A stretch of DNA of 64,000 nucleotides from Microcella indica. Lineage in GTDB: Bacteria; Actinomycetota; Actinomycetes; Actinomycetales; Microbacteriaceae. This document shows, piece by piece, positions 4,578-56,614 of the stretch. The translations under genes were made by a program, and so were the position numbers. Numbering within the stretch: the first letter of the stretch is position 1; each line of letters opens with the position of its first letter. Under the pieces are notes generated by a model. The model made no database searches. It was given only the letters and a program-made list of their open reading frames with translations, and was not told where the DNA came from. Where the stretch lies: NCBI RefSeq assembly GCF_013414345.1, contig NZ_CP058670.1, positions 1,612,001-1,676,000 of the forward strand, read 5' to 3'.

Positions 4578-4847
4578 TCAGGCGAGGCTCAGGAACAGCT
4601 TCTCCAGGTCGGCCATCTCGACGTCCGCCTTCTCTCCGGTCTCGTCGCGCATGCAGTCCTTCATGGCCGCAGCGATGATCGCGAACCCCGCGCGGTCCAG
4701 TGCGCTCGAGACGGCGGCAAGCTGCGTGACGATGTCGCGGCAGTCGCGCTCCTCCTCGACCATGCTGAGCACGGCCCCGAGCTGGCCCTGAGCGCGCCGG
4801 AGGCGATTGGCGATCTTCTTCGCCTCGCTCGCGGGCACGCCGCTCAT
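4578..4847 (-). CDS. CsoR/RcnR-family repressor, CstR-like persulfide sensor
   Basis: 89 aa all-helical repressor. It has the RLRRAQGQLGAVLSM helix of the family, Cys36 (ERDCRDI) and Cys65 (MKDCMRD). Copper-sensing CsoR uses Cys-His-Cys with His at the position that is Ala61 here; loss of that His with both Cys kept is the pattern of CstR, where the two Cys form a per- or polysulfide bridge. The downstream genes in the same coupled operon are a rhodanese (ATGA overlap at 4844) and, upstream on the strand, a CoA-disulfide-reductase/rhodanese fusion, which supports sulfide sensing. Matching palindromes lie at 6872-6887 and 56184-56205. Confidence 0.88.
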   Translation of the reverse strand: MSGVPASEAKKIANRLRRAQGQLGAVLSMVEEERDCRDIVTQLAAVSSALDRAGFAIIAAAMKDCMRDETGEKADVEMADLEKLFLSLA

Positions 4848-5161
4848 GCCGCGCTCCCGCGCTCTACGTCGAGGCCGCGCTGCACCCAGGCGGAGGTCCC
4901 GCCGGCGACGGAGACCGCGTCGACCCCGACGCTCAGCAGGTAGTCGGCCGCCCGGAGGCTGCGGGCCCCTGAGTGGCAGATGACGTACACGGTCTCGTCG
5001 CGGGGAAGGCTGTCGGCCTCGTCGGGGATGGTCGCCAGGGGGATGAGGCGCACGCCGGGCACGTGAGCCGCCGCGTACTCGTCGGGCTCGCGCACATCGA
5101 TGATGGGGTGCCCCTGCTCGCGCAGCAGCACGAGCTCGTCGACGTCGATCTCTCTCGCCAT
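4844..5161 (-). CDS. Single-domain rhodanese
   Basis: 105 aa rhodanese, probable sulfurtransferase or persulfide carrier in the cytoplasm. IDVREPDEYAAAHVPG is the N-terminal rhodanese motif and CHSGAR (Cys62) the six-residue active loop typical of thiosulfate/persulfide rhodaneses. It sits between the CoA-disulfide-reductase fusion (49 bp upstream) and the CstR-like repressor (4-base overlap), so it should be co-transcribed with both. Confidence 0.93.
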   Translation of the reverse strand: MAREIDVDELVLLREQGHPIIDVREPDEYAAAHVPGVRLIPLATIPDEADSLPRDETVYVICHSGARSLRAADYLLSVGVDAVSVAGGTSAWVQRGLDVERGSAA

Positions 5162-5210
5162 GATGGTCTTCCGTTTCGCTGGAGGTCGGGGGGGTGCTGG
5201 TGGTGGCCGC

Positions 5211-6860
5211 TCAGGCGGGCTGGGGCGCGAGCGAGCGGGACGCGGTGCCGGAGCGCCACGTGGTGTACCCGCCGTCGAGGTTGGCCACGGTCACACCGTA
5301 CTGCCGCAGGAGGGCAGCTGCGGTGTGGCCGCGCTGGCCGACCTTGCAGTGCACGATGACGCGCTCGCCGCGCAGCGACTCGGCGTGCTCGCGCAGGCCA
5401 TCGAGCGGCATGAGCTCGGTACCGGGAATCGCGCCGTCCGCGTTCTCCTGCTCGGTGCGCACGTCGACCAGTCGCCAGCCCTCGGCGAGCCGAGCGTCGA
5501 GCTCGTGCCACTGCACGCTGTCCTCACCGTCGAGCAGGTTGTCGTCGACGTAGCCGAGCATGTTGACCGGGTCCTTTGCCGAGGCGTACTGCGGCGCGTA
5601 GGCGAGCTCGAGGTCGGCGAGCCCGCGTGCGGGGATACCACCGGCCATCGCGGTCGCGATGATGTCGATGCGCTTGTCCGCTCCTCCCCCGATGGCCTGC
5701 GCGCCGAGGATCCCGTCGGTGCGAGCGTCGACGATCAGTTTGAGGGCGAGAGCGCTCGCGCCCGGGTAGTAGCCGGCGTGATCGCTCGGGTGGGTGTGGA
5801 TGACGCGCAGCTCGCGCCCCTCCTCGCGCAGCTCCTGCTCCGTGCGGCCGACGGCCGCGGCGGTGAGCCCGAAGAGCCCGATGACGGCGGTGCCGAGCGC
5901 GGGTACGGCGGCGTGCGGGCGGCCCGCGATGGCGTCGGCGGCGAGTCGGCCGTGACGGTTGGCGAGGCCGGCGAGCCACACGGGTGAGGCGGGGCCGTCG
6001 GCGCGCTGCTTGACGACGGCGTCGCCCACGGCGTAGATGTGCGAGTCGCTCGTGCGCTGGTGCTCGTCCACGACGATGTAGCCGCGAGGGTCGAGGTCGA
6101 GACCTGCCTCGGCGGCGAGGGCGCTCTCGGGGCGCACGCCGACGGAGAGCACGACGAGGTCGGCGGGCAGCTGCTCGGCGCCGCTGTCGAGCTCGACGCC
6201 CGAGTCGGTGATGGCGCTCAGCGCCGCACCGAGACGCACGGTCACGCCGTGGGCGCGCAGGTGCTCGGTGACGATCTGGGCCATCTCGGGGTCGAGAGGG
6301 CGCAGCAGCTGGGGCAGCATCTCGACGACCGTCACGTCGAGACCCGCGTGGACGAGGTTCTCGGCGAGCTCGAGGCCGATGAAGCCGCCGCCGGCGACGA
6401 CGGCGCGCCGGGCATCCCTCGCCGCAGCGATGATGGCGTCCATGTCGGCGAGGTCGCGCAGCACGAGGCCGCGCTCGACGCCGGGGATGGGGATGCGCAC
6501 GGGGCTCGCGCCCGGGCTGAGGATGAGAGCGTCATAGGGCAGGGAGGTCTCCTCCCCCGTGCGCACGTCGCGCACCGCCACCGTGCGGGCGTCCCGGTCG
6601 ACGGTGAGCGCCTCGGTGCGCACGCGCACGTCGAGGGCGAAGCGTGCCGCGAGCGACTCGGGGGTCTGCAGGATGAGGGCGTCGCGATCGTCGATGACGC
6701 CCCCGACGTGGTACGGCAGACCGCAGTTGGCGAAGGAGACGTGCTCGCCGCGTTCGATGACGGTGATGCGAGCCGACTCGTCGAGGCGGCGCAGTCGGGT
6801 GGCGGCCGACATGCCGCCGGCGACGCCGCCGATGATGACGTAGGAGCGAGGTGAGGTCAT
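5211..6860 (-). CDS. CoA-disulfide reductase-type flavoprotein fused to a rhodanese domain
   Basis: 549 aa. Residues 1-430 are a pyridine-nucleotide-disulfide oxidoreductase: FAD loop IIGGVAGGMSAA (9-20), single active cysteine Cys46 in SFANCGLPY, NAD loop VVAGGGFIGLELAE, and the C-terminal dimerisation region with KRIDIIATAM. The last ~100 residues are a rhodanese with active loop CKVGQR. This CoADR-RHD architecture is known to reduce CoA-persulfides or polysulfides with NAD(P)H. The ATG at 6860 is chosen because the flavin domain starts there; a start 13 codons upstream would run through the operator. Heads the operon that ends with the CstR-like gene. Confidence 0.92.
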   Translation of the reverse strand: MTSPRSYVIIGGVAGGMSAATRLRRLDESARITVIERGEHVSFANCGLPYHVGGVIDDRDALILQTPESLAARFALDVRVRTEALTVDRDARTVAVRDVRTGEETSLPYDALILSPGASPVRIPIPGVERGLVLRDLADMDAIIAAARDARRAVVAGGGFIGLELAENLVHAGLDVTVVEMLPQLLRPLDPEMAQIVTEHLRAHGVTVRLGAALSAITDSGVELDSGAEQLPADLVVLSVGVRPESALAAEAGLDLDPRGYIVVDEHQRTSDSHIYAVGDAVVKQRADGPASPVWLAGLANRHGRLAADAIAGRPHAAVPALGTAVIGLFGLTAAAVGRTEQELREEGRELRVIHTHPSDHAGYYPGASALALKLIVDARTDGILGAQAIGGGADKRIDIIATAMAGGIPARGLADLELAYAPQYASAKDPVNMLGYVDDNLLDGEDSVQWHELDARLAEGWRLVDVRTEQENADGAIPGTELMPLDGLREHAESLRGERVIVHCKVGQRGHTAAALLRQYGVTVANLDGGYTTWRSGTASRSLAPQPA

Positions 6861-6871
6861 GCGACCACGAT

Positions 6872-6887
6872 ATACCCCCAGGGGTAT
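6872..6887 (-). promoter_or_regulatory. CstR-type operator upstream of the sulfur operon
   Basis: Perfect inverted repeat with arms ATACCCC and GGGGTAT around two bases. In the direction of transcription the core reads ATACCCC-TG-GGGGTAT, identical to the core of the site at 56184-56205. It lies 12 bp before the start codon at 6860, close to a TGGACA-like -35 and TATATC-like -10, where bound repressor would block polymerase. The G/C-tract flanked by TAT arms matches the known style of CsoR/CstR sites. Confidence 0.8.
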
Positions 6888-6962
6888 TTTGTCCAGCATG
6901 GTCGGCGCTGCTCCCAGGCTACGCGCGACGGTCGCTCAGAACGATGTGCGACAGTCGGCTTC

Positions 6963-7733
6963 GTGCAGCGGCCCGCCTTCCTCACCCGCGCCCGCGGGCG
7001 CATCCTCACTCTCTTCTCGGGCGACCCCGCGGGAGCGCCGGCCTGGGTTCAGGCCCTCGAGACGGGAGACGATGCCGGGTACTTCGGCCCCGACTCCGCC
7101 GTCTGGGAGGTGCACAGCGGCATCCCCACGGTCGTCGCAGGCGTGCGCGCGCTCCTCATGCAGACGCTGCATCCCGGCGCGATGGCGGGCGTGCACGATC
7201 ATTCCCGGTATCGCGACGACCCTCTCGGTCGCCTCTCCGGCACCGTCCGCTGGGTGCTCACGACGACCTTCGCCGACACCGAGCAGGCGCGCGCCGGCTG
7301 CGCGTGGGTCTCGCACCTGCACGACGGAGTCTCCGGCACCTATACCGTGTCGACCGGCGAGGAGCGCTCGTACGCGGCCGGTGACGCCGAACTCCTCACC
7401 TGGGTGCACTGCGTCTTCGCCGACGCCTTCCTCGGCTGCCACGAGACGTGGGGCGGGCCGATACCCGGCGGCTCCGACCGCTACGTCGCCGAGTGGGCGC
7501 GCGCTGGCGAGCTCATGGGGGTCGAGAACCCGCCGCGCTCACGCGCCGAGCTCGATGCCGCGATCGCCGCCTACCTGCCCGTGCTGCGCCGCGACGACCG
7601 CGTCGACGACGCCGTGCGGTGGCTGCGGAATCCCCCGCTCGGGCGCGGCATCGGGCCGGCCTACCGCGTCCTCTTCGCGGGCGCGGTCGCGTCGCTGCCC
7701 GATCGCTATCGTCGCCTCCTCGGCTTGCGCTGA
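6963..7733 (+). CDS. DUF2236 (MpaB/latex-clearing-like) oxygenase family protein
   Basis: 256 aa from a GTG start. Recognised by the DUF2236 core: LLMQTLHPGAMAGVHDHS, DDPLGRLSGTVRWVLTTTFAD and WVHCVFADAFL, with conserved His residues that bind haem in the characterised members (latex-clearing protein, MpaB). Substrate unknown. A GACAGT -10-like box at 6950-6955 lies 7 nt upstream, so the message may be leaderless. It is divergent from the sulfur operon; the operator there is nearer the other gene, and joint control is possible but not shown. Confidence 0.85.
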   Translation: MQRPAFLTRARGRILTLFSGDPAGAPAWVQALETGDDAGYFGPDSAVWEVHSGIPTVVAGVRALLMQTLHPGAMAGVHDHSRYRDDPLGRLSGTVRWVLTTTFADTEQARAGCAWVSHLHDGVSGTYTVSTGEERSYAAGDAELLTWVHCVFADAFLGCHETWGGPIPGGSDRYVAEWARAGELMGVENPPRSRAELDAAIAAYLPVLRRDDRVDDAVRWLRNPPLGRGIGPAYRVLFAGAVASLPDRYRRLLGLR

Positions 7734-7852
7734 CCGTGGTGGCCGGCGCTGACCGGGACCCGCGTCCTCTTGATCGGGATGCGCGCGCTCCTGGGCCGCG
7801 AATCGTCCAGCCGCGCGTACACGCGCCGCCGGCTCGATCGGCTCGGCCTCGC

Positions 7853-8455
7853 CTAGAAGGGCTGATCGACCGGCAGGCCCGTGCGCAGCTCGGCAGGAAG
7901 GTGCCCGAGGTCGTTGTGCGTCACGAGAACAGGCGGCTTCGCCGAGCGGACCCTGATGATCGTCAGCCCGCAGTTGGCCTGGTTGACACCCATCCAGCGC
8001 CAGGCGGGGGCTCCGAAGACCTCCCGCACGAACCAGGCGATGACGAAGTTGTGCGTGATGAGCAGCTCGTGCCGGTCATCCCGCGAGGGCGACAGCCACT
8101 CGGCGACCGCGTCGGCCATCTGCGCCTCGCCCGCGACGATCTCCTCCTCCGTCACGCCGCCGAAGAACGACTCGAAGGCGTGCGGCATGTCGGCGGTGGG
8201 GCCGGTCGGGATGCAGTCCATGAGCAGAGCCGAGATCTCGGGCTCCATCGCCGGCATGAGCTCGGTCATGTATGAGGCCGTCTCGACAGCCCGCTGGAGG
8301 GGCGAGGTGTGCACGCTCGCGAAGGGAACCCCGCTCAGGCGCTCGGCGATCGCCCGCGCCTGGCGCTGACCGCGACCGCTCAGGGGCCCGTCGGGAAGCC
8401 CATGCTCGGCATCCTGCTGCTCCCCATGACGAATCAGGTACACGTACCGCGACAC
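7853..8455 (-). CDS. Histidine phosphatase (phosphoglycerate-mutase-like) family protein
   Basis: 200 aa. LIRHGEQ carries the phospho-accepting His, followed by SPLQRAVET with the second conserved Arg and ITHNF with the second catalytic His. The GTG at 8455 is preceded by AAAGGAG, which decides the start against longer readings. Substrate cannot be assigned: this superfamily holds mutases, sugar phosphatases and protein phosphatases. Divergent from a TetR regulator with a strong palindrome in between (8526-8547). Confidence 0.88.
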   Translation of the reverse strand: MSRYVYLIRHGEQQDAEHGLPDGPLSGRGQRQARAIAERLSGVPFASVHTSPLQRAVETASYMTELMPAMEPEISALLMDCIPTGPTADMPHAFESFFGGVTEEEIVAGEAQMADAVAEWLSPSRDDRHELLITHNFVIAWFVREVFGAPAWRWMGVNQANCGLTIIRVRSAKPPVLVTHNDLGHLPAELRTGLPVDQPF

Positions 8456-8525
8456 AACGCTCAACTCCTTTGACGACCCCGTCGAGCCTAGGCCATGCGC
8501 GCACCGTCCCCCCGGACAGTTCTGC

Positions 8526-8547
8526 GGACAGACAACCTTGTCTGTCC
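8526..8547. promoter_or_regulatory. Palindromic operator, probable TetR site
   Basis: Arms GGACAGACAA and TTGTCTGTCC are a perfect 10-bp inverted repeat around CC. It lies in the 173-bp gap between the histidine phosphatase start (8455) and the TetR start (8629). A TACAGT hexamer (8555-8560) follows just downstream, so bound regulator would overlap the TetR gene's own promoter. Autoregulation is the simple reading; control of the divergent phosphatase is possible. Confidence 0.7.
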
Positions 8548-8628
8548 CCTCTGCTACAGTTGTCCAGACGCCCTCCCCCCGAACGGCGTCCAGACGGCAC
8601 TGTCGCCGCACGAACAAGGAGGCACGCC

Positions 8629-9231
8629 GTGTCGGTCACTACCCCCCTCGCGCCGACGCGGCGTGTCGCCCCCGCGAAGGCGCGCATCCTGGAGACCGCG
8701 ATCACGCGCTTCTACCAGGACGGCATCCGCAGCGTCGGCGTCGACCGGCTGATCGAGGAGTCCTCGGTCACGAAGGCGACCTTCTACAAGCACTACGGCT
8801 CGAAAGACCGCCTGATCAGGGACTACGTCGACGCCCTCGCTCATCGGGCCCTGGACGACTTCGATGAGCGCGCGAGCGAGGCCTCCACGCCCGAGCAGCT
8901 GCTGCGGGCATGGACCGACCACCTCGTCGACTACGTGCACGGCGACACCTTCCGGGGCGACCCCTTCCTCAACGCCGCGGCCGAGTTCGCCGACCCCGCG
9001 CATCCCGTGCGCGAGCGCATCACCGAGCACTTCGAGACCATGACGGAGCGGTTCGCGAGCGTGCTCGAGCGACTCGGCCACCCCATGCCGGGAGCCGCTG
9101 CCGATCGCCTCCTCCTCGCGACCCTCGGCCTCGAGGCGTGGAGCTACACGGGCGACGTCATCGCGGCCTCCGCGGCCTTCCGCAGCGCCGTCGACCGCCT
9201 CATCGCCGAAGCCACGACCACGCCCCTGTGA
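8629..9231 (+). CDS. TetR/AcrR family transcriptional regulator
   Basis: 200 aa from a GTG behind AAGGAGG (8616-8622). N-terminal helix-turn-helix: ARILETAITRFYQDGIRSVGVDRLI then SSVTKATFYKHYGSKDRLI, the TetR recognition helix. The C-terminal domain resembles the regulators of oxidoreductase or efflux genes but has no diagnostic ligand motif. The palindrome 82 bp upstream is its likely operator. The aldo/keto reductase on the opposite strand is convergent and therefore not under this promoter. Confidence 0.92.
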   Translation: MSVTTPLAPTRRVAPAKARILETAITRFYQDGIRSVGVDRLIEESSVTKATFYKHYGSKDRLIRDYVDALAHRALDDFDERASEASTPEQLLRAWTDHLVDYVHGDTFRGDPFLNAAAEFADPAHPVRERITEHFETMTERFASVLERLGHPMPGAAADRLLLATLGLEAWSYTGDVIAASAAFRSAVDRLIAEATTTPL

Positions 9232-9264
9232 GGCGGTCGTCCGCACACGCGAGCGTCGGCCGAG

Positions 9265-10245
9265 CTACTCGCTCACCCGGTCCAGCTCGGTGAGCTGCTG
9301 GCGACTGAGCAGCAGGTGAGGCGCGGCCATCGCGACGTCGAGCTGAGCGGGCGCGCTCACCGACACGACGGGCGCGACGATGTGCGGGCGACTCAGCAGC
9401 CAGGCGAGCGACACCGTTGCCACCGCGCTCTGCGTGTCGGCCGCGATGCGGTCGATTGCGTGCAGAATGCGCAGGTTGCGGCGCGTGAGCATCGCGGCGA
9501 CCTCCCGGCCGCGACGATGCCGCTCCAGATCGGCGCGCGTGCGGTACTTGCCCGAGAGGAACCCCGAGGCGAGCGCGAATCGCGGCATCACGCCCAGGTC
9601 CAGCTGGGCGGCCACGCGAGCGAGCTGCGCCTCGTACTCCTCACGGTGCACGAGGTTGTAGTGCTGCTGCAGGGCGACCATGTGGGCGACGCCGGACTGC
9701 GCCGCCGCGATGCGCGCTTCGATCAGCCGGTTGCCGGTGTGGTCGCTGCCGCCGAAGTAGCGCACCTTACCCGAGCGGATGAGCTCATCCACGGCGAGCA
9801 GCGTCTCGTCGAAGGGAACCGACGGGTCGTCGATGTGCAGGTACAGCAGGTCGATCGCGTCGACGCGCAACCTCTGCAGCGACTGCTCGACGGCGCGCTC
9901 GATCGACCGGGCGGAGAGACCCGGGTTGTCGGGGTTCTTGCCGACCTTGGTCGCGATGGTGAAGGCGTCGCGGTCGCTGCGGCCGTGCATCCAGTTGCCG
10001 ATCATGATCTCGCTGCGCCCGCCGGCGTAGGAGTCAGCAGTGTCGATGTAGGTGCCGCCGAGCTCGGCGAAGCGGTCGAGGATGCCCGTGGTCGTCGGCC
10101 CATCGGCCGTCCATCCGAAGACGGTGCCGCTGAGCGCGAGGGGGAAGACGCTGAGCTCGCTCGGCCCGATGCGGCGCGGGAGAGGCGTCGGCCCGGTTTC
10201 CAGCGCGACGGCACCCGGCTCGGGGGCGCTCGTGCGGTCGTTCAC
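9265..10245 (-). CDS. Aldo/keto reductase
   Basis: 326 aa NAD(P)H-dependent (beta/alpha)8-barrel oxidoreductase. Catalytic residues are visible: Asp and Tyr in YIDTADSYAGGRSE, Lys in IATKVG and His in LLYLHIDD. The closest-looking subgroup is the AKR11/12-like family often annotated as sugar or voltage-channel-beta-like reductases. GTG start at 10245 with no clear Shine-Dalgarno; an unannotated leader of about 200 bp precedes it. Substrate unknown. Confidence 0.92.
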   Translation of the reverse strand: MNDRTSAPEPGAVALETGPTPLPRRIGPSELSVFPLALSGTVFGWTADGPTTTGILDRFAELGGTYIDTADSYAGGRSEIMIGNWMHGRSDRDAFTIATKVGKNPDNPGLSARSIERAVEQSLQRLRVDAIDLLYLHIDDPSVPFDETLLAVDELIRSGKVRYFGGSDHTGNRLIEARIAAAQSGVAHMVALQQHYNLVHREEYEAQLARVAAQLDLGVMPRFALASGFLSGKYRTRADLERHRRGREVAAMLTRRNLRILHAIDRIAADTQSAVATVSLAWLLSRPHIVAPVVSVSAPAQLDVAMAAPHLLLSRQQLTELDRVSE

Positions 10246-10382
10246 GCTGCTGCGTCTTTCTCGGTGCCCGAAGAGGGGGCTCCGTGGTCGATGATGCGAG
10301 GGTAGCGCGCGGCGGAGGTCGACCCCGCCAGAGGCTCACGATCGTTACCGTGCCGTGTTGCGCACTGCCGACGCCGAAGAGC

Positions 10383-10425
10383 GCTGCGGGCGAGAGCGCA
10401 CCGGGGGTGCGATCCCGCCCGCAGC
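10383..10425 (-). terminator. Nested hairpin downstream of the rhodopsin gene
   Basis: Outer 10-bp stem GCTGCGGGCG/CGCCCGCAGC encloses an inner stem CGCACC/GGTGCG with loop GGG. It lies 30 bp after the rhodopsin stop codon on the minus strand. There is no strong T-tract, so termination rather than mRNA 3'-end protection is only probable. The rest of the 209-bp gap to the aldo/keto reductase holds nothing else recognisable. Confidence 0.55.
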
Positions 10426-10454
10426 ATCAGTTGAGCCAGGGTGATGCGGAGCGC

Positions 10455-11201
10455 CTAGACGCCCTGCACCTTCTTGACGCCCGCAGTCTCCTCGACGCTG
10501 GTCTGCTTGGCCGCGCGCACGGCGACGATGCCGAAGCCGACCTTGTTGAGCACGTCCGCGATCACGTAGATGATCGCGGCGACGCCGATCGCGAGGGCCG
10601 CGTCGCCGCCGCTGACCTCGATGAACTCCTGCGTCGCGGTTCCGATCGGGTAGATCGACCAGCCCACGATGACGAACCACTTCATGATCGTCACCGCGCG
10701 CTTGACGTGCGCGGGGCCCGTCGACACGTTCACCGTGAAGACGATGTACACGATGTAGAGCCACGCGAGCACGGAGAGGATGAAGAAGATGTAGTTGCCG
10801 GCCGATCCGGGCTCGCCCACCTCACCCAGGTATCCGAACACGATCATCGCGATGTCGGCGATGATGAGCTTCGTCAGGAGACCCTTCTTGAGCGCTCCGG
10901 CGATCGCGACGATGAGAGCGAACTCCACGAGCAGGAGCGGCGTCGTGAGCAACCAGTCGATGTAGCGCAGCGGCAGGGTGGCTTCGATGTCGTCGGACGT
11001 GGCGTTGCCGCCCGGGAACAGCACGACGTCCTTCATGACGTAGTACATGATCGCGGGGATGAACGTGATGACCGCCGCGTAGGTGGCCACCGACCTCAGT
11101 TCGGGCTTGAGGTCATTGCGCTCGAGGTAGAACGACAGGGTGCCGGCCGCCAAGGCGACGAAACCGAGCATGAAAAAGGCCTGGACGACTTGGATGTCCA
11201 C
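10455..11201 (-). CDS. Microbial rhodopsin, proteorhodopsin-like light-driven proton pump
   Basis: 248 aa, seven membrane helices. Helix C RYIDWLLTTPLLLVEF gives Arg79, Asp82 (counterion and proton acceptor), Thr86 and Glu93 (donor), the DTE motif of proton pumps. Leu90 is at the tuning site where Leu gives green absorption. VGWSIYPIG is helix F and Lys220 in ADVLNKVGFG binds retinal. The His of helix B that pairs with the counterion in proteorhodopsins appears to be Met52. The GTG at 11201 is the start: AAGGAG precedes it, and longer readings add a non-membrane segment. No retinal or carotenoid synthesis gene is in the window, so retinal must come from elsewhere. Confidence 0.95.
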   Translation of the reverse strand: MDIQVVQAFFMLGFVALAAGTLSFYLERNDLKPELRSVATYAAVITFIPAIMYYVMKDVVLFPGGNATSDDIEATLPLRYIDWLLTTPLLLVEFALIVAIAGALKKGLLTKLIIADIAMIVFGYLGEVGEPGSAGNYIFFILSVLAWLYIVYIVFTVNVSTGPAHVKRAVTIMKWFVIVGWSIYPIGTATQEFIEVSGGDAALAIGVAAIIYVIADVLNKVGFGIVAVRAAKQTSVEETAGVKKVQGV

Positions 11202-11226
11202 AATTCTCCTTCGAATGGCGCCGACC

Positions 11227-11243
11227 GTCCGCGGAGCGCGGAC
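11227..11243 (-). promoter_or_regulatory. 5' leader hairpin of the rhodopsin gene
   Basis: Perfect 7-bp stem GTCCGCG/CGCGGAC with a 3-base loop, ending 25 nt before the GTG start at 11201. Upstream of it (about 11260-11285) is an AT-rich stretch, uncommon in this DNA, that probably contains the promoter (TATTCA-like box). The remaining gap up to 11446 shows no gene. Confidence 0.4.
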
Positions 11244-11446
11244 CGACAGCGTGCAGAGTGAATACGATGAATTTTCATTCTTCGACACACACTGGGAACG
11301 GGACCAGTGCGTTTCGGAGCATTGCTGGCTCTACGTCGCTAACCGGCACTGCGAGCAGGGAGTTCGCCGGGAGTCGGTGGCGCGTTGGCTGACAGCCCCG
11401 GCCGGTCCGCACCGGCGGCGGACGCTGCCTCGCCCTTGCGCGCGTT

Positions 11447-11480
11447 TGAACAAGCGTTTAGGATGCTGAACATGCGTTCA
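11447..11480 (+). promoter_or_regulatory. Twin operator-like repeats upstream of the TetR/ABC exporter operon
   Basis: Two 14-bp half-palindromes: TGAACAAGCGTTTA (11447-11460) and TGAACATGCGTTCA (11467-11480), exactly 20 bp apart, that is two helical turns on one face. The second is a perfect TGAAC/GTTCA palindrome and covers the start codon of the TetR gene. TNAAC-N4-GTTNA is a common TetR half-site style, so this is the likely autoregulatory operator. Confidence 0.65.
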
Positions 11481-13884: not shown

Positions 13885-13906
13885 CGCTCCCCGACCGCGG
13901 CCGCGA

Positions 13907-13951: not shown

Positions 13952-13971
13952 TCTGCGGGAGCGAGCGGCGG

Positions 13972-20047: not shown

Positions 20048-20048
20048 G

Positions 20049-47596: not shown

Positions 47597-47626
47597 GCAC
47601 CTCCCACCGTGAGGCACGCGCTACTA

Positions 47627-47642: not shown

Positions 47643-47675
47643 CGGCGGCAGGGTGACGAGGTGAGGAGGGCGGCC

Positions 47676-48131: not shown

Positions 48132-48153
48132 CGCATGAGAGTCCTCTCATGCG
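48132..48153 (+). promoter_or_regulatory. Inverted repeat upstream of the histidine kinase gene
   Basis: Perfect 10-bp arms CGCATGAGAG and CTCTCATGCG around TC, beginning the base after the OB-fold gene's stop. Its core TGAGAG-NN-CTCTCA recurs at 50803-50816. A GATAAT -10 (48178-48183) 6 nt before the kinase ATG follows, so this is probably a response-regulator site, most simply for the neighbouring regulator. Confidence 0.6.
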
Positions 48154-48189
48154 AGGTCTGCTCGCCTGCGCACCGCCGATAATGGGGGG

Positions 48190-49695: not shown

Positions 49696-50363
49696 GCAGC
49701 ATTCTGGTCGTCGAGGACGAGGCCCGCATCTCGACCTTCGTGGAGAAGGGTCTCACCGCCGCGGGCTACACGACGACGGTCGTGACCGACGGGCGCAGCG
49801 CGCTCGACTACCTCGCGACGGGGTCGTTCGATCTCGTGCTGCTCGATGTCGGTCTGCCGGGGCTCGACGGCTTCGAGGTGCTGCGCCGCTTCCGGGCGGG
49901 CGGCGCGACCACTCCGGTGATCATGCTCACGGCACGCACGAGTGTCGACGACACCGTGACGGGCCTCGACGGCGGCGCCAACGACTACTTGCCGAAGCCC
50001 TTCAAGTTCGACGAGCTGCTCGCGCGCATCCGCGTGCGCTTGCGCGAAGCCGGCCAGCAGGGCGCTGCGGAGACCGTGCTGCGGCACGGCGCGCTCACTC
50101 TCGACCTGCGGGCACGGCGCATCACGGTCGACGGCACCACACTCGATCTCTCGGCGCGCGAGTTCGGGCTCGCCGAGCAGTTTCTGCGCCACCCCGATCA
50201 GGTGCTGTCGCGCGAGCAGCTGCTCAGCCGCGTCTGGGGGTTCGACTTCGACCCTGGTTCGAACGTCGTCGACGTCTACGTGCGCTACCTGCGCGCCAAG
50301 ATCGGTGCCGATCGCATCGAGACCGTGCGGGGCATGGGCTACCGCCTCGCGCCTGCCGGCTGA
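49692..50363 (+). CDS. OmpR/PhoB-type response regulator
   Basis: 223 aa. Receiver domain: acidic pair in VVEDE, phosphorylated Asp52 (LVLLDVGLPG), conserved Lys in LPKPF; then a winged-helix DNA-binding domain (LSAREFGLAEQFLRHPDQVLSREQLLSRVWG ... NVVDVYVRYLRAKI). Probably binds the TGAGAG-NN-CTCTCA repeats found on both sides of the pair. Confidence 0.96.
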   Translation: MSSILVVEDEARISTFVEKGLTAAGYTTTVVTDGRSALDYLATGSFDLVLLDVGLPGLDGFEVLRRFRAGGATTPVIMLTARTSVDDTVTGLDGGANDYLPKPFKFDELLARIRVRLREAGQQGAAETVLRHGALTLDLRARRITVDGTTLDLSAREFGLAEQFLRHPDQVLSREQLLSRVWGFDFDPGSNVVDVYVRYLRAKIGADRIETVRGMGYRLAPAG

Positions 50364-50377
50364 CGGAGCCGCCGCGC

Positions 50378-50767
50378 TCAGTCGGCGGAGTCGACCGAGT
50401 CAGGGCTGTCGACGGAGGCCGGGCTCGCGGCCGATGCGGGGGCGACCGGCTGCGGCGCGGGGGCCGGGGCCTGCACGACCTCCGGTGCCGAGCTGGCACT
50501 CGGGGTGGGGGTTGCCGTCGGGGAGGCCGTCGGCGTCGCACCGACGCTCGCTCCAGCACCACTGACTCCCTTGACCTCCTCGAGAGCGATGCTCGAGATG
50601 GGGGGAACCGACGACTCGGTCGTCGAGTCCACGAGCGGCATGGCCCCCGCGATCGACGCGGCACTCGCGGCGACGAGACCCAGCCCGAGCGCCGAGGCGG
50701 CTCCGACAGCGAGCCATCCGCGTGCGGCGCCGTGCGCTCGGGGAGTTCCGGTCGGCGACGAGGTCAT
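50378..50767 (-). CDS. Membrane-anchored Pro/Ala/Ser-rich exported protein, function unknown
   Basis: 129 aa. One membrane/signal segment (~20-42, GWLAVGAASALGLGLVAASAASIAGAM) and a disordered outer tail rich in Ala, Pro, Ser and Thr (TASPTATPTPSASSAPEVVQAPAPAP). Encoded convergently behind the response regulator, with only 14 bp between. GATACT (50779-50774) is 6 nt before the ATG, and the TGAGAG-NN-CTCTCA repeat sits 22 bp further up, so it is the best candidate target of the two-component pair. Confidence 0.62.
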   Translation of the reverse strand: MTSSPTGTPRAHGAARGWLAVGAASALGLGLVAASAASIAGAMPLVDSTTESSVPPISSIALEEVKGVSGAGASVGATPTASPTATPTPSASSAPEVVQAPAPAPQPVAPASAASPASVDSPDSVDSAD

Positions 50768-50801
50768 GCTTCCAGTATCGACGGCGCAGCCGGGCCTGTG
50801 G

Positions 50802-50817
50802 GTGAGAGTTCTCTCAC
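50802..50817 (-). promoter_or_regulatory. Second TGAGAG-NN-CTCTCA inverted repeat
   Basis: GTGAGAG and CTCTCAC, 7-bp arms around TT. Shares the core with the repeat at 48132-48153. It is 22 bp upstream of the GATACT -10 box of the exported-protein gene (50767) on the minus strand. Confidence 0.6.
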
Positions 50818-50845
50818 GGAAGCGCCCGCCTTGCGGCACGCACCG

Positions 50846-52078
50846 CTACCAGGTGGAGGTCGTGAGCGGCCGCTCATCGGCGGTGACGATGCGCTCCGCC
50901 CGCTCGAGCAGCAGCTGAGCATCCTCCGACCCCGCCGCCGAGCGTGCGAGAGCGTGACCGAGAAGCTGCGTGCCGGCGATCGCGTGCGCACGGTCGGCGA
51001 AACCAGGCTCGCGGGAGCCGAACCAGCGCCGTCGCCACCCGTCCGCGAGCACCGAGCTGCGGCGTGCGCGCACCGTGGCCGCGCTGCCCCCGTCGTGGAT
51101 GACGGTCGCGATGAGGTGGGCGTAGAGTGCTGCGGCATCATCGGCCGGGTCGCCCCACCCGGAGGTGTCGATATCGAGCACGCCCGTGATGCGGCTCGGT
51201 TCGCTCGGGTCTACGAGCAACTGCGCGAGGTGCAGATCGCCGTGCACTGTGCGCGAGGGGGGCGGTTCGCCTCCCGCGCGATACCGGGCGGCGATCGCCC
51301 GCGACGTGCGCTCGATGCGCGAGTCGTGGTCGGGCAGCTGGTCGAGCAGCCGCTCCTCGTACCAGTCGAGGCGGCGCACGAGCGAGGAGCGCGCGGGCGC
51401 CTCGGAGGGCACCGACGCGATCTGCACGACAAGGCGCGCGAGCTCATCGAGCAGCGCGCGCGGATCGGTCGCCCGGTCGAGGACGCTGATGAGCTCGGCT
51501 CCCGCGAGGGCTTCGAGGGCCACGAGCCCCTCCTCGCTCCACCCGAGCACGGAGGGAACGGGAACCCCGTGCTGGCGCCACTGGGTGTGCTTGCGCTGCA
51601 GAGGCTCGGCCGTCGAGGGGCGCACGACCTTCAGGAAGTACGCGGTGCCCGAGGTGTCGACGCGCACGACCGCGCGCTTGCCCGGCCGGTAGGCGGCGAG
51701 GGAGACCTTGAGGTCGTCGACGGGCAGGCCGAGTCGGCCCAGCACGACCCCGGCCGCCTCGGCGTAGACCGCCGTGCGCAGTGCCGGCAGGGCGGGGTCG
51801 GCGGGGTACACCCAGACATCGACGCGGTCGCCCGATCCCGGCTGCGTCAGCGTGAGCACGCCGGGTCGCGTCGTGTCGGGAGGCGAGGTCTCGACGAACA
51901 CGGTGTGGTCGGCGCTCTTCCCCGCGGCATCCGTGAGTGAGACGCGGTAGCCATGGGTGAAGCCCTGCCCGGTCGGCTCCACCTGCAGCGCTGTCACCTC
52001 GCCGAGCGTCGAGCCGAGGGACGACGCCACGGCGGTGAGCACATCGTGGTGCGGAAGGGGGCGCGCGGTCGTCGACAT
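50846..52078 (-). CDS. Kinase-fold phosphotransferase (APH/choline-kinase-like)
   Basis: 410 aa. C-terminal APH domain: VHGDLHLAQLLVD (Brenner motif; the usual Asn after HGDLHxx is Gln here) and VLDIDTSGWGDPADDAA (metal-binding DxD region). The N-terminal ~130 residues form a beta-rich domain (TALQVEPTGQGFTHGYRVSL ... VDVWVYPADPALPALR), and the whole layout resembles maltokinase/aminoglycoside-phosphotransferase-type proteins of actinobacteria. CAGAAT lies 7 nt before the ATG. Substrate unknown. Confidence 0.85.
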   Translation of the reverse strand: MSTTARPLPHHDVLTAVASSLGSTLGEVTALQVEPTGQGFTHGYRVSLTDAAGKSADHTVFVETSPPDTTRPGVLTLTQPGSGDRVDVWVYPADPALPALRTAVYAEAAGVVLGRLGLPVDDLKVSLAAYRPGKRAVVRVDTSGTAYFLKVVRPSTAEPLQRKHTQWRQHGVPVPSVLGWSEEGLVALEALAGAELISVLDRATDPRALLDELARLVVQIASVPSEAPARSSLVRRLDWYEERLLDQLPDHDSRIERTSRAIAARYRAGGEPPPSRTVHGDLHLAQLLVDPSEPSRITGVLDIDTSGWGDPADDAAALYAHLIATVIHDGGSAATVRARRSSVLADGWRRRWFGSREPGFADRAHAIAGTQLLGHALARSAAGSEDAQLLLERAERIVTADERPLTTSTW

Positions 52079-52081
52079 CGT

Positions 52082-52396
52082 TCACATTCTGTCGGATGTC
52101 TCGGTCAGCACGTCAATCCGCCGCACCGGGTTGACGCGGCGGCATCGGGTCCAGTAGCGACACCGACTCACTCCCTCCCCCGATGTGGGGGGGGCCACGA
52201 TTGCTGGAGAGCAGACCGGCACCGGCGTAGGGTGTACCCGTCGTGTCCCCCCTTTGGCGGACACCGCGAGCGCACCACACCCCCGCACCACACCCCAACT
52301 CCACACCCCCGAGACCCACCCCTTCGGCACCCGCCCCCCACGGGTCGCCCGCACCACCCGAGAGGGTTCCTTCACCCGAAAGGAAGGACCGTCAGC
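52082..52396 (+). promoter_or_regulatory. C-rich, G-poor leader region upstream of a small membrane-protein gene
   Basis: A 318-bp gap without a gene. Positions ~52260-52350 are dominated by C and A on the plus strand (runs of CCCC/CACACC) with few G, out of keeping with the window. Close to the next gene, TTCCTT (52367-52372) can pair with AAGGAA (52380-52385), which is part of the Shine-Dalgarno of that gene, loop CACCCGA. The promoter is not identified. Confidence 0.45.
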
Positions 52397-52624
52397 ATGC
52401 CCGCACTCCTCGTCACCGCCATCGTCGTCTCCCTCGAGCGGCACCGCCGCCTCACGCCCGTCACCGCGATCCTCACCGGCCTGTCGACGCTCGCGATCGT
52501 CGGCGGCGCCATCCTCGTCACCTTCTCGGCGACCGCTCCCGCCCTCGCGAGCGACTTCGCGCCGCGCGGTGTGGGCGAGAGCTCGCTCGAGCGCGTCGAC
52601 GCGCTGCAGCTGCCCACCCTCTAG
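52397..52624 (+). CDS. Small exported/membrane protein, function unknown
   Basis: 75 aa. Basic N terminus (VVSLERHRRLTP), one membrane segment (~20-46, TAILTGLSTLAIVGGAILVTFSATAPALA) with a possible signal cleavage at PALA, and a short tail (SSLERVDALQLPTL). ATG behind AAGGAAGGA, which can be masked by the leader hairpin. No homologue recognised. Confidence 0.6.
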   Translation: MPALLVTAIVVSLERHRRLTPVTAILTGLSTLAIVGGAILVTFSATAPALASDFAPRGVGESSLERVDALQLPTL

Positions 52625-52673
52625 GGCGCCGCTCGCCCCCGCGCAGACACGGCCACGCAGCGGCCGACCGCGC

Positions 52674-53906
52674 CTACTCCTGCCCGCGGGGCGACTGGCC
52701 CCAGCACTTCGGCCCGCAGTCCCGGTACGGCCCCGACTCGCCGGACGCCGCACGCCGGGTGCTGATGAGGCGCCGCACGGAGTCGTCGACCGAGGCCTGC
52801 GAGACGGTGCCATCCTCGACCGAGGCGACCAGAGCATCCAGGAGGGATTCGGGGTCGATGCCGACCGATCGGGGATCGCCGGGCAGCACGTAGAGCAGCA
52901 GGTCGTTGCCGGCGGCGAGCGCGCGCACGGCGTTGCGTTCGGGGTCGGCGTACTCGGCGAGGCCCGAGCGCTGCAGCATGAGCATGTCGTCGGTGACGAC
53001 GATGCCGTCGAACCCGAGCTCGTCGCGCAGAATCGTGATCCACTCGCTCGAGAGCGTCGCGGGCACGGCGCTGATGCTGTCGAACTGCAGGTGGCCCGTC
53101 ATGACGAGCGGGGCGCCCGCCTCGATGCCCGCGATGAAGGGCACGGCGTGCGTGCGCCGCCACTCCTCGAGGCTGATGCTCGAGCGGGGCACGCTCACGT
53201 GCGAATCGTCAGGGCTCGCCCCGTGCCCGGGAAAGTGCTTGAGCGTGGAGAGCGCGGCGCCGCTCTCACCGCGCACGGCGGCCGCGACCCGCTCGGCGCT
53301 CGCGGTGGGCGATTCGCCGAGGGTGCGCGGGCCGATGAAGCTCGAGCCGTCTGGCGAGACGTCCGCGACCACGCCGAAGTTGATGAGCACCCCCGCCTGG
53401 TCGACGAGACCCGCCCTCTCACGAAAGGCGGCCTCCGTCGCGGACGGTGGCGCCGTCCACAGGGCGCGCCCGGCCGGCGCGTCGTCGGCGAGGAGCCGCC
53501 GCACGATGCCGCCCTCCTGGTCGATGGCGGTGAGGATCGGCAGGCCCGGCTCGGCGTGCAGCGCGGCAGTGAGTCTCGAGACGGTCGTTGCCGAGCCGCC
53601 GACGTTGTCGCCCATGAGGATGACGCCACCGAAGCCGTGCCGCTCCACGACCGAGCGGATGCGTGAGGCATCCGTGCCCGGCACGTGGATCATGACCTGG
53701 GCGGCGAGCTTCTGTCGCAGGGTCATGTCGGCGAGCCGTTGGTCGACGTAGAGGGCGGCGGGGTCGAGCAGCGGCGGCGCCCCGGCAGAGCGGGCCTCGG
53801 GCGCGCGCGGTGCCGCCCCGTAGGAGACGCAGCCGGCGAGGACGAGCACGGCGAGGGCGGCCGCTGCGGCGAGGAGCGCGCGCGGTCGGCTCGAGCGTCG
53901 TCGCAT
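52674..53906 (-). CDS. Glycoside hydrolase family 3 lipoprotein (NagZ-like)
   Basis: 410 aa. Signal peptide with lipobox LVLAGC. GH3 barrel with the NagZ motif KHFPGHGASPDDSH (general acid-base His/Asp pair), TAIDQEGGIVRR and nucleophile region VVTDDMLM. Cuts N-acetyl-beta-hexosaminides, probably wall fragments. Start at 53906 (MRRRSSRP) is supported by TACCAT 6 nt upstream on the minus strand. A late C-rich tail (RDCGPKCWGQ) is unusual. Confidence 0.93.
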   Translation of the reverse strand: MRRRSSRPRALLAAAAALAVLVLAGCVSYGAAPRAPEARSAGAPPLLDPAALYVDQRLADMTLRQKLAAQVMIHVPGTDASRIRSVVERHGFGGVILMGDNVGGSATTVSRLTAALHAEPGLPILTAIDQEGGIVRRLLADDAPAGRALWTAPPSATEAAFRERAGLVDQAGVLINFGVVADVSPDGSSFIGPRTLGESPTASAERVAAAVRGESGAALSTLKHFPGHGASPDDSHVSVPRSSISLEEWRRTHAVPFIAGIEAGAPLVMTGHLQFDSISAVPATLSSEWITILRDELGFDGIVVTDDMLMLQRSGLAEYADPERNAVRALAAGNDLLLYVLPGDPRSVGIDPESLLDALVASVEDGTVSQASVDDSVRRLISTRRAASGESGPYRDCGPKCWGQSPRGQE

Positions 53907-53947
53907 CTGACGATGGTAGCCCGGGCGGGTCGACATACGATGGCCGC

Positions 53948-54778
53948 ATGCTGACTCGCGCGCGTGCCCTGCTGGGTGCCGCGCACCTCGGGCCGAGCGT
54001 CGTCGTCACGGTGGTCTCGGTGGCGCTCGGCGTCGTCTCGGGCCTGCCGCTCGAACGGGTGGCGCTGCTCGGTGCGGTCATCCTGGCCAACCAGCTGTCG
54101 ATCGGCTGGTCGAACGACGCCCTCGATGCGGAGCGCGACCGTGATGCCGCCCGCGCCGACAAGCCGACGGTGCGCGGGGACGTCTCACCCCGCACCCTGC
54201 TGGTGTGCGCCGTGGCGAGCGCGACCCTGGCGATCGCCCTCTCCCTCCTGCTGGGCCTGGCGGCGGCCGCCGCGCACCTGGTCTTCCTCGCCTCCGGCTG
54301 GGCCTACAATGCGGGGCTCAAGCGCACCTTCTGGGCGACCGCCTGCTACGTGGTGGGCTTCGCGAGCCTGCCGCTCATCGTGACGCTCGCGCGCGAGACG
54401 CCGCAGCCGGCGGCGTGGTGGGCGGTCGGCATCGGCGGGATGCTCGGCCTCGCCGCCCACGTGGCGAACGTGCTGCCCGATCTCGTGGATGACGCCCGGC
54501 ACGGCATCCGCTCGTTGCCCCATGCGCTCGGCGCCCGCGCGTCGGGCGTCGTGGCCCTGCTGGCTCTCGCGGCGGCAGCGGCGCTCGGCGCGCTCGGGCC
54601 GCCGACCCTCACCCCGGTCGGCATCACTGGTCTCGCCGCCTCGGCGGCGCTCCTCGTGGCGGGGCTCGTCGTCGTGGCCCGCCTGCCCGGCTCGCGCGCG
54701 CTGTTCCGCATCATCATGGCATCGGCGCTCACCGCGGTCGTGACGCTCGCGGGCGCCGGGTCAGCGATTCTCGGCTGA
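53948..54778 (+). CDS. UbiA family prenyltransferase
   Basis: 276 aa, about eight helices. The first Asp-rich motif NDALDAERDRDAARADKP (NDxxDxxxD) and second DLVDDARHG bind Mg and prenyl diphosphate. Acceptor unknown (candidates are quinone or lipid precursors). Divergent from the NagZ-like gene; TACGAT (53936-53941) is 6 nt before the ATG. The end overlaps the convergent exporter by 18 bp. Confidence 0.88.
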   Translation: MLTRARALLGAAHLGPSVVVTVVSVALGVVSGLPLERVALLGAVILANQLSIGWSNDALDAERDRDAARADKPTVRGDVSPRTLLVCAVASATLAIALSLLLGLAAAAAHLVFLASGWAYNAGLKRTFWATACYVVGFASLPLIVTLARETPQPAAWWAVGIGGMLGLAAHVANVLPDLVDDARHGIRSLPHALGARASGVVALLALAAAAALGALGPPTLTPVGITGLAASAALLVAGLVVVARLPGSRALFRIIMASALTAVVTLAGAGSAILG

Positions 54779-56137
54779 GGCCGTCTCCTCGGCCGGCGCG
54801 GGGTCGTTGCGGATGCCGATCGCCGAGGTGATGGCACCGGCGGCGAGCAGTGCCGCGCACAGGATCAGTGCGCGGTCGAACCACGCGCCGTCCACCTCGG
54901 TGCCGATGACGAGCCCGAGCACGGCGATCGCGATGAGCCCGGCGACGCGCGAGACGGCGTTGTTGGTCGCGGAGGCGATGCCCGACTGCCGCGGGTCGAT
55001 CGCGCCGAGGATCGCCGAGGTGAGCGGCGCGATCGTCATGGTGAGCCCGAAGCCGAAGAGCAGCACGCCGGGCAGTGCCTGCGTGACGAAGTCGAAGGGC
55101 TCGTCGATCGCGAGCATCAGCAGAAAGCCGACGGAGGCGAGTGCGGGCCCGCCGGCCATGAACCATCGGGAGCCGTACCGCCCGGCGAGCGTGCCGAACC
55201 AGGAGGAGAGGGCGATGTTGAAGATGGTGACGGGCAGCAGCACGAGCCCCGCGAGGGTGGCTGAGAGGCCGATGCCCTGCTGCAGGTAGATCACGATGAC
55301 GAGCGACCCGACGGCGAGGGCGGCGTAGATGGTGACGGTCGCGAGGTTGCCGACGGCGAAGTTGCGGGAGCGGAAGAGCCCGAGGGGCAGCATGGGATGC
55401 GCGGCACGGCGCTCGCGGACGAGGAAGCCCGCGAGGCACAGCACGCCGACGATGAGCGGGACGAGCACGATGGGGTCGGCCCAGCCGTAGTTGGCCTGCT
55501 CGATGAGGCCGAAGACGAGCCCGCCGAGCCCGACCGCGCCGAGCAGTGCGCCGAGGTAGTCGATGGGCACGCGCGTCTCGGCGGGCTCGTTGCGCATGGG
55601 CAGCATGAGGATGAGCGTCGCCGCAATGGGGATGACGTTGATGACGAAGACCCATCGCCAGCTCGCGAGGTCGGTAAGCACCCCGCCGATGAGGGGGCCG
55701 GCGAGGAAGGCGGCGGAGGTCCACGCCGTCCAGATGCCGATCGCCTTCGCCTGCGTCGCGCCGCGGTGCGTGCTCATGATGAGCGCGAGCGAGCTGGGCA
55801 CGAGAAGCGCTCCGGCGACGCCTTGCGCGGCACGCGCAACGATGAGTAGCTCTGCCGTGGGGGCGAGCCCGCACGCGATCGAGGTGACCCCGAAGCCGAT
55901 GAGGCCGATGCGCAGGATCGCGACGCGGCCGAAGAGGTCGCTGAGCGAGCCGGCGAGCAGGATCAGGGCGCCGAGCGTGATGAGGTAGGCGTCGACGACC
56001 CACTGCTGCACGGGCAACCCCCCACCGAGCTCATCCGTGATGGCGGGCAGAGCCACGTTGATGACGGTCCCGTCGAGGAACGCGACGAAGGCGGCGAGAA
56101 TCGCGACGGCGAGAGCGCGGCGGTTGAGGGGGTTCAC
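54761..56137 (-). CDS. DHA2 family MFS exporter (14 helices)
   Basis: 458 aa. Motif A LLAGSLSDLFGRVAIL, motif C WRWVFVINVIPI and FLDGTVINVALP (motif D1) identify the DHA2/EmrB-like drug:proton antiporters. GTG start at 56137. It is divergent from the rhodanese lipoprotein, with the CstR-type operator (56184-56205) between. That operator also carries a TATAAC -10-like half on this strand, so the exporter may belong to the sulfide regulon. Confidence 0.92.
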   Translation of the reverse strand: MNPLNRRALAVAILAAFVAFLDGTVINVALPAITDELGGGLPVQQWVVDAYLITLGALILLAGSLSDLFGRVAILRIGLIGFGVTSIACGLAPTAELLIVARAAQGVAGALLVPSSLALIMSTHRGATQAKAIGIWTAWTSAAFLAGPLIGGVLTDLASWRWVFVINVIPIAATLILMLPMRNEPAETRVPIDYLGALLGAVGLGGLVFGLIEQANYGWADPIVLVPLIVGVLCLAGFLVRERRAAHPMLPLGLFRSRNFAVGNLATVTIYAALAVGSLVIVIYLQQGIGLSATLAGLVLLPVTIFNIALSSWFGTLAGRYGSRWFMAGGPALASVGFLLMLAIDEPFDFVTQALPGVLLFGFGLTMTIAPLTSAILGAIDPRQSGIASATNNAVSRVAGLIAIAVLGLVIGTEVDGAWFDRALILCAALLAAGAITSAIGIRNDPAPAEETASAENR

Positions 56138-56183
56138 ACGGATGAGTCAATCACAGGCGAAGTGCAAGTAGAAGTGCCAACCC

Positions 56184-56205
56184 GTTATACCCCTGGGGGT
56201 ATAAC
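56184..56205. promoter_or_regulatory. CstR-type operator between exporter and rhodanese lipoprotein
   Basis: Perfect 10-bp arms GTTATACCCC and GGGGTATAAC around TG. The inner 16 bases equal the operator at 6872-6887. TATAAC at 56200-56205 is a plausible -10 for the rhodanese gene (start 56249), and the same hexamer reads on the other strand toward the exporter. Confidence 0.8.
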
Positions 56206-56248
56206 GTGTACTCTGGTGGGCGACCCCCACCGAAACGGAGCCCGTGCC

Positions 56249-56614
56249 ATGCGCCGCACCCTCAGCACCCTCGCCCTCAGCCTCACTCTCGCTCTCGGCC
56301 TCGCGGCCTGCGCTCCGAGCGCCGAGCCGCTCGACCTCGAGGAGGGCACCGTGCTGCTCGACGTTCGCACCCCGGGCGAGTTCGCCTCCGGCCACCTCGC
56401 GGGCGCACTCAACATCGACGTGCAGGCCGCCGACTTCGAGGCGCGCGTCGCCGAACTCGACCCCGACGCCGCGTACGTCGTCTACTGCCGCACGGGCAAC
56501 CGCTCGGGTCAGGCCATCGCGCGCATGGAGGCGCTCGGCTTCACCGACCTCACCAACGGCGGCAGCGTCGAGGGCGCGGCTGCGGCCACGGGCATCCCGA
56601 TCATCACCGACTGA
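56249..56614 (+). CDS. Rhodanese lipoprotein
   Basis: 121 aa. Lipobox LAAC (Cys21), then a rhodanese domain with LLDVRTPGEFASGHLAGALN and active loop CRTGNR (Cys80). Anchored outside the membrane, so it would act on extracellular sulfide or thiosulfate. The operator 43 bp upstream links it to the CstR-like repressor at 4578, 52 kb away. Confidence 0.94.
   Translation: MRRTLSTLALSLTLALGLAACAPSAEPLDLEEGTVLLDVRTPGEFASGHLAGALNIDVQAADFEARVAELDPDAAYVVYCRTGNRSGQAIARMEALGFTDLTNGGSVEGAAAATGIPIITD

Follow-up and report, generated by a model that had tools for sequence, protein, structure and literature searches.

Several described repressors of the CsoR family resemble the system reported here, a predicted CstR-type regulator of Microcella indica and its operators, two of which lie in the 64-kb stretch of DNA that was analysed (the window; positions are counted in the whole stretch). 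The papers are cited from the portions of their text available to us. ScCsoR (SCO0620) of Streptomyces coelicolor is a persulfide-sensing CsoR-family repressor with two cysteines, the X8 operator ATACCn6GGTAT and a rhodanese under its control (PMC7533328). Its circuit is a compact one of four genes with a persulfide dioxygenase and a sulfite transporter (PMC7533328), whereas in M. indica we found six dispersed sites, with a thioredoxin, a small Cys protein and a lipoprotein among the targets, and no persulfide dioxygenase with the one query used. CstR of Staphylococcus aureus is likewise a persulfide-sensing CsoR-family repressor of sulfurtransferase genes, but a single direct operon is inferred for it, the targets being cstA, cstB and sqr (PMC5480029). 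Three plasmid-borne staphylococcal cst loci that we read share the X8 spacing, whereas residue 61 is Asn in their three proteins and Ala in that of M. indica. The CsoR of Streptomyces lividans belongs to the same protein family and its operator has the same arms, but it is a copper sensor with copper ATPase/chaperone targets and its operator, TAC-X9-GTA, is one bp longer (PMC3902906). TTHA1953 of Thermus thermophilus is also a CstR-like repressor whose sulfur regulon is dispersed, but its operator (TACNNTACNNNNGTANNGTA) is without G tracts and it controls sulfur-oxidation genes (PMC10318464). A 2022 review described the information on DNA recognition by CstR as limited (PMC9774590). We consider it highly probable that the M. 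indica protein is a persulfide-sensing repressor of the CstR type, acting at operators with a 2-bp spacer (N2, ie TAC-X8-GTA), and that its regulon is dispersed and is separated from copper control, at sites with a 3-bp spacer (N3, ie TAC-X9-GTA), by the spacer. The original prediction, made from the letters of the window, held that such a regulon had not been seen described in this form; that is half right, as the persulfide circuit of ScCsoR, with its rhodanese and X8 operator, was already published (PMC7533328).

The predicted regulator is an 89-aa protein encoded at the end of an operon (4578-6860, minus strand) that also encodes a CoA-disulfide-reductase-like flavoprotein with a C-terminal rhodanese (CoADR-Rhd) and a single-domain rhodanese. 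It scored 83.6 bits with PF02583, against a gathering score of 22.8, and so belongs to the CsoR/RcnR (DUF156) family. The cysteines of CstR are present at CsoR positions 36 and 65 and there is no His at 61; Ala at this position breaks the C-H-C site of copper CsoR. The operon, with its two rhodanese-domain genes, also provides the sulfurtransferase linkage expected of CstR. A tree of 63 sequences was built from few columns, with the solved chain 7mq3 on a long branch. In it a single branch split 30 CstR-like from 30 copper-like rows (support 96/74, and 100% of 200 bootstrap trees), and the residues at 36, 61 and 65 were CAC in 27, CSC in two and CTC in one of the former, and CHC in all 30 of the latter. 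The nearest solved structures to the 89-aa protein were 7mq1-7mq3, with 7mq3 the best relative; 7MQ2 is named CstR in PMC9774590. The original prediction had read these three residues correctly as the CstR rather than the copper pattern, and the protein separated from copper CsoR in the tree. Its assignment as a CstR-type regulator, and not a copper-type one, is supported by its sequence.

The pattern ATACCCC-N2-GGGGTAT is found at 6872-6887 and at 56187-56202, with perfect 7-bp arms in both, and the core of the two sites, oriented to the rhodanese genes, is ATACCCCTGGGGGTAT. They are the sole matches in the window, even when two mismatches are allowed, and the mean number expected by chance is 0.02 (100 dinucleotide shuffles of the window). 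The scan thus located the same 16-bp core, with perfect arms, at both places where it had been claimed, and the Pfam and NCBIfam results matched the gene content given for them (a CoADR-rhodanese/rhodanese/CsoR-family operon, a DHA2 exporter and a rhodanese lipoprotein). The second operator, given before as 56184-56205, is a longer perfect palindrome of 24 bp, with 11-bp arms, at 56183-56206.

When the whole genome (2.59 Mb, one contig) was scanned with the pattern, five exact sites, one with a single mismatch and one with two mismatches were obtained, and the reversed control pattern gave no match in the same scan. Six sites (five exact and the one with a single mismatch) accordingly replace the two loci of the original prediction. 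The third exact site is 9 bp upstream of a DUF4395 gene and is flanked on its other side by a LON-domain gene. The fourth precedes the gene for a 54-aa Cys-rich protein, behind which lies an F420_ligase (CofE-like) gene, and the fifth precedes a lipoprotein gene followed by a glutathione-peroxidase-like gene. The site with one mismatch precedes a thioredoxin gene. Pfam confirmed DUF4395, LON, F420_ligase, thioredoxin and GSHPx at these added sites, and rhodanese genes are present in two of the six target units. The name DUF4439 was rejected for the lipoprotein at genome 2.367 Mb, which matched no Pfam or NCBIfam model. The near-site with two mismatches (genome 57029-57044, L007 1501-1516, TTCCCCCAGGGGGTAT) has an imperfect left arm and was not counted; it lies between divergent genes that we take to be hemA-like and hemE-like. 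About 2 kb past the thioredoxin gene (L017 6976-8481) there are presumably a serine acetyltransferase-like and a cysteine synthase-like gene.

That one shared operator marks a sulfur regulon is supported by these targets. CoADR-rhodanese, thioredoxin and rhodaneses fit the reduction and relay of sulfane sulfur, and the gene set as a whole looks reductive and sulfur-relaying. It was not the cst type of sulfide oxidation regulon, with a persulfide dioxygenase under control, as far as one query can tell: a persulfide dioxygenase-rhodanese from Cellulomonas had three matches in the genome, all in its rhodanese part, and SQR and a sulfite exporter were not searched. Because this query met only rhodanese stretches, the 'complete' sulfide detoxification that had been proposed is unsupported.

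The dependence of the sites on the regulator was surveyed in 120 genomes of the family, 51 of which encode a CstR-like protein (at least 45% identity to the window protein). N2 sites occurred in 37 genomes, all among these 51 and in none of the other 69 (Fisher p = 1e-19; related genomes are not independent, so this and the following p-values overstate). The 69 comprise 37 genomes with only lower-identity CsoR-family matches and 32 with none. No such link was found for N3 sites (69 genomes; 33/51 with CstR and 36/69 without, p = 0.19). At least 75 N2 and at least 75 N3 sites were listed in the family. Among the sites listed, those within 3 kb of a CsoR-family match divided as 34 CstR to 0 CsoR for N2 and 23 CsoR to 1 CstR for N3, while 41 N2 and 51 N3 sites had no such match within 3 kb. 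At the level of the class (296 genomes) CstR was present in 145 genomes, of which 99 had the shorter pattern ATACCC-N4-GGGTAT, compared with 9 of the 151 that lacked CstR (p = 2e-31).

These counts bear on two other explanations. The N2 sites might be common to all three CsoR-family repressors of M. indica and so define a joint copper and sulfur stress regulon, as the identical arms of N2 and N3, the three proteins above the PF02583 cut-off and the induction of both copAZ and cst by HNO in S. aureus (PMC5480029) would allow. We regard this as unlikely, given that N2 sites are absent from all the CstR-lacking genomes, the 37 with a lower-identity CsoR-family match included, that the listed sites near a regulator divide by spacer, and that the CsoR of S. 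aureus reportedly does not respond to sulfide (PMC5480029). The palindrome might also be a structural or chance G-tract element without a regulator, since palindromic G/C tracts can recur by chance and the reversed control pattern did match 4 of the 296 genomes of the class. With a chance expectation near zero, tight spacing, consistent targets and a dependence on CstR such that the family table already resembles the loss of sites with the loss of CstR, this can hardly be credited.

The three M. indica proteins above the PF02583 cut-off are the C-A-C protein of the window, a C-H-C protein and a C-H-H protein. The C-H-C protein adjoins a P-type ATPase and transposase-like genes (labels assigned by eye) in a stretch of 62% GC, compared with 71% for the window, and this CsoR/copper-type ATPase locus (L012, genome 375000-386000) may have been acquired. 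The C-H-H protein precedes a P-type ATPase (also labelled by eye) in a locus, L013, of 70% GC. An exact N3 site occurs just twice in the genome, at positions 377528 and 669419, each time before one of the copper-type loci. The same arms are therefore found in six sulfur-side sites of 16 bp (2-bp spacer) and two copper-side sites of 17 bp (3-bp spacer), and with two further CsoR paralogues that have almost the same operator in one organism, the spacer becomes the point of interest.

The rule was followed into other genera with 80 named CstR loci, the best 80 of 569 from one scan, which include Streptomyces, Nocardia, Arthrobacter, Cellulomonas, Microbacterium, Cryobacterium and others. Of all spacers from 0 to 7 bp, only that of 2 bp was found between ATACCCC arms in these loci (52 times). 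The loose core TACC/GGTA gave 133 copies with N6 in 72 loci and 16 with N7 in 10 loci, and a few of other lengths; 12 of the 16 N7 copies sit in six loci (L140, L142, L147, L162, L171 and L167). In L140, L142, L147 and L167 one N7 copy each was read; every one of these copies precedes a copper-type csoR, and in three of the loci a copZ-like gene lies opposite. Conversely, 30 copper CsoR loci, the best 30 from a search of 98 genomes, held 28 N7 copies in 22 loci, one N5 and no N6. In another 30 CstR loci, taken from the class search, N6 occurred 23 times (16 loci) and N7 was absent. Among 20 plasmid loci, hand-picked from 40 listed matches, X8 accompanied 10 of the 12 regulators without His61 (X9 one, neither one), and X9 four of the eight C-H-C regulators (neither three, and a poor remote X8 one). 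The 10 X8 loci are the three staphylococcal cst loci, one each of Enterococcus, Lactiplantibacillus, Paenibacillus and Leuconostoc, a record labelled Stenotrophomonas, and two of Rhodococcus. Within the Bacillota of this set X8 was found in 7/7 loci without His, and the two C-H-C loci gave one X9 and one neither. On the two Rhodococcus plasmids (L373, L378) MMPL-family transporters lie beside C-G-C regulators, with X8 sites and genes for MBL, rhodanese or TauE proteins.

For TTHA1953 a change of one nucleotide in either direction between the repeats costs 10-15-fold in affinity (PMC10318464), and an explanation by the spacer is therefore plausible. On these sequence grounds the spacer difference most likely keeps the persulfide and copper regulons apart. 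Both spacings have been published separately, X9 with copper operators (PMC3902906) and X8 with ScCsoR (PMC7533328). No published contrast of X8 with X9 was found in the literature searched, though Luebke 2014 and Grossoehme 2011 (S. aureus) may contain it; in that search PMC3902906, as far as its text was available, was alone in combining CsoR, CstR, operator and spacer.

The targets are conserved within the genus, all 26 searched genomes of which carry one to ten sites of the 16-bp form. Seventy sites were read in 15 congeneric genomes (two added genomes are incomplete assemblies), and 64 of the 70 are beside a target of the M. indica set. CoADR-Rhd and the small Cys gene each had a site in 14 of the 15 genomes, thioredoxin in 13 and the rhodanese lipoprotein in 11. 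Distances from site to start are tight, being 11 bp for CoADR in 12 genomes and 17 bp in two, and 25-27 bp for thioredoxin. In genome G425 (L346 2041-2850) the CoADR gene that follows the site is fragmented, which may reflect an assembly fault or a real deletion. The gene opposite the lipoprotein varies between congeners; the DHA2 exporter faces the site in only 4 of the 11 congeneric lipoprotein loci. It was therefore rejected as a general core member, and the exporter that had been counted in the regulon is unsupported as a standing member.

The original prediction had named the core standing before many unrelated genes as an observation that would speak against it. Outside the genus, 56 of 64 sites fetched by pattern in 29 genomes had an M. 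indica target family within 260 bp, compared with 46 of 1055 random positions in the same loci, an outcome in favour of the prediction. A wider count, 125 of 141 sites in 47 genomes with a core target, includes loci fetched by their regulator and so leans towards the result; among the other 16 sites are some that precede OsmC, SLAC1 and YgaP-TM genes.

Several observations weigh against a CstR regulon set apart by its spacer. Fourteen of the 51 CstR genomes of the family have no exact N2 site; of the 12 of these that were opened, nine have a looser X8 near cstR and three have none. The 17-bp form is mildly commoner with CstR at the class level (101/145 versus 73/151, p = 2e-4), although this link is much weaker than that of the 16-bp form. 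Two of the targets are thinly conserved, DUF4395 in 6/15 and the unnamed lipoprotein in 2/15 congeners. Eight of the 30 copper loci have neither N6 nor N7, and in a fifth CstR locus read for N7 copies, L128 of Streptomyces, X9 is next to X8 and not before a copper-type csoR. The one clear exception to the spacer seen in the family is G059 (L257 3566-3582), where X9 precedes CoADR-rhodanese; no copper CsoR was found in this 1.6-Mb genome with the window protein as query. Lastly, Deinococcus NW-56 (L377 2191, 2387) has X9 only, with a C-Y-C regulator beside MBL/rhodanese/TauE genes. The spacer rule is thus strong in Actinomycetes and fits the small sample of Bacillota, and is not universal.

The commonest target of the sites in the genomes read is the small Cys protein (53 site-sides). 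The M. indica member of 54 aa (genome 1995704; L015 about 4000-4171, minus strand) starts MCxxxTCxxCGKTTWxGCGQHV and matches no Pfam or NCBIfam model. The family has the motif MC-x4-C-x2-C-x4-W-x-GCG-x-H and a length of 37-62 aa, in two size classes of 37-44 and 51-62 aa. Of the 80 named CstR loci, 26 have such a gene in the DNA available; 25 of the 28 members found in them share ten invariant positions, including M1, C2, C7, C10, C18, H21 and C35. The predicted structure of a Propioniciclava member, from 25 rows, has two short strand pairs and a short helix (mean predicted local distance difference test score 78, predicted template modelling score 0.50). Foldseek matched this model to 10 PDB entries (E up to 10), but to none at 0.001. 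Searching PDB sequences with a profile brought up a single weak match (E 0.08) that looks like chance, and a literature search for the motif found none. No fold or function of the family follows from the model or these searches. The CofE-like gene was rejected as a general partner of the small Cys gene, since, among the sites read, no genome but that of M. indica and its near twin, G420, has it there.

The sites appear to be part of the promoters they precede. In 102 one-sided sites, the GGGTAT end of the arm is followed by A at +1 in 48% and T at +3 in 51%, giving TATAnT, and there is a faint TTG at the -35 place, 17 bp upstream (T 28%, T 30%, G 37%). As arm and flank together form TATAnT, the operator lies inside the promoter, as is expected of a repressor. 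From the sites, their spacing, the targets, the co-occurrence and the clade we infer the binding, the ligand, the direction of regulation and the role of the spacer, as follows. The reduced 89-aa protein would bind ATACCCC-N2-GGGGTAT palindromes inside its target promoters, the right arm supplying the first bases of the -10 element, and when bound would block transcription. A build-up of persulfide or polysulfide would then link Cys36 and Cys65 of neighbouring subunits, by analogy with CstR and ScCsoR, and the linked repressor, again as in those proteins, would leave the DNA (PMC7533328, PMC5480029, PMC9774590). The scattered regulon so released would comprise CoADR-rhodanese/rhodanese/cstR, the rhodanese lipoprotein, thioredoxin, the 54-aa Cys-rich protein, the DUF4395 gene and the lipoprotein/glutathione-peroxidase pair. 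At copper-type CsoR loci the same arms with one more central bp (TAC-X9-GTA) would keep the regulons apart.

The signal could be broader, with the 89-aa protein sensing thiol stress at large (electrophiles, HNO, disulfide stress) and persulfide one inducer among several. A thioredoxin and a glutathione-peroxidase-like gene among the targets, the persulfide dioxygenase not found in M. indica with one query, and the induction of cst through CstR by HNO in S. aureus (PMC5480029) are in keeping with this, but rhodanese genes occur in two of the six units, and in relatives CstR-type regulators are found together with persulfide dioxygenase, TusA, DsrE or TauE. We think a general thiol sensor possible, though doubtful, and prefer a sensor of persulfide.

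The features of the window are collected in Table 1. CoADR-Rhd most likely starts with the ATG at 6860, which leaves 11 bp to the operator, and not where the longer listed open reading frame does; its top NCBIfam model is CoA-disulfide reductase, with a score under the model cut-off. The MpaB/Lcp-type gene is a conserved neighbour, found across the CoADR site in 14 of the 15 congeneric genomes, in one with its 5' part unmatched.

Table 1. Genes and putative operators in the 64-kb window of M. indica
Feature	Position	Strand	Evidence or remark
CoA-disulfide-reductase-like flavoprotein with C-terminal rhodanese (CoADR-Rhd)	5211..6860	-	Pfam Pyr_redox_2, Pyr_redox_dim, Rhodanese
Single-domain rhodanese, operon gene 2	4844..5161	-	Pfam PF00581, E 3e-16
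CstR-type CsoR/RcnR-family repressor (predicted), 89 aa, Cys36-Ala61-Cys65, operon gene 3	4578..4847	-	PF02583, tree, residue table
CstR-type operator (putative), ATACCCC-TG-GGGGTAT, X8/N2 spacing	6872..6887	-	11 bp upstream of CoADR start codon
CstR-type operator (putative), 24-bp perfect palindrome, core 56187-56202	56183..56206	.	Between two divergent genes
Rhodanese lipoprotein, 46 bp downstream of operator	56249..56614	+	PF00581; lipobox LAAC and CRTGNR loop read by eye
DHA2-family MFS exporter, divergent from lipoprotein; uncertain regulon member	54761..56137	-	TIGR00711 slightly above cut-off
MpaB/Lcp-type oxygenase-domain gene, divergent from CoADR-Rhd	6963..7733	+	PF09995, E 7e-49

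Beyond the regulon itself, we lean towards a wider proposal, that a one-bp spacer code (X8 for CstR, X9 for CsoR) holds in Actinomycetes and seemingly in Bacillota, and that the small Cys protein is a new reactive-sulfur protein, possibly a carrier or sink of sulfane sulfur. If the code is true, one indel would be enough to transfer a promoter between the copper and persulfide stress responses, and annotators could distinguish copper sites from persulfide sites by their length in bases. Several CsoR paralogues with a near-identical DNA box are frequent in bacteria, and a difference of one bp offers a testable answer to how they are kept apart. The results also suggest that CstR is able to run a dispersed regulon, and single out the small Cys-rich protein as a candidate core component of the actinobacterial response to reactive sulfur.

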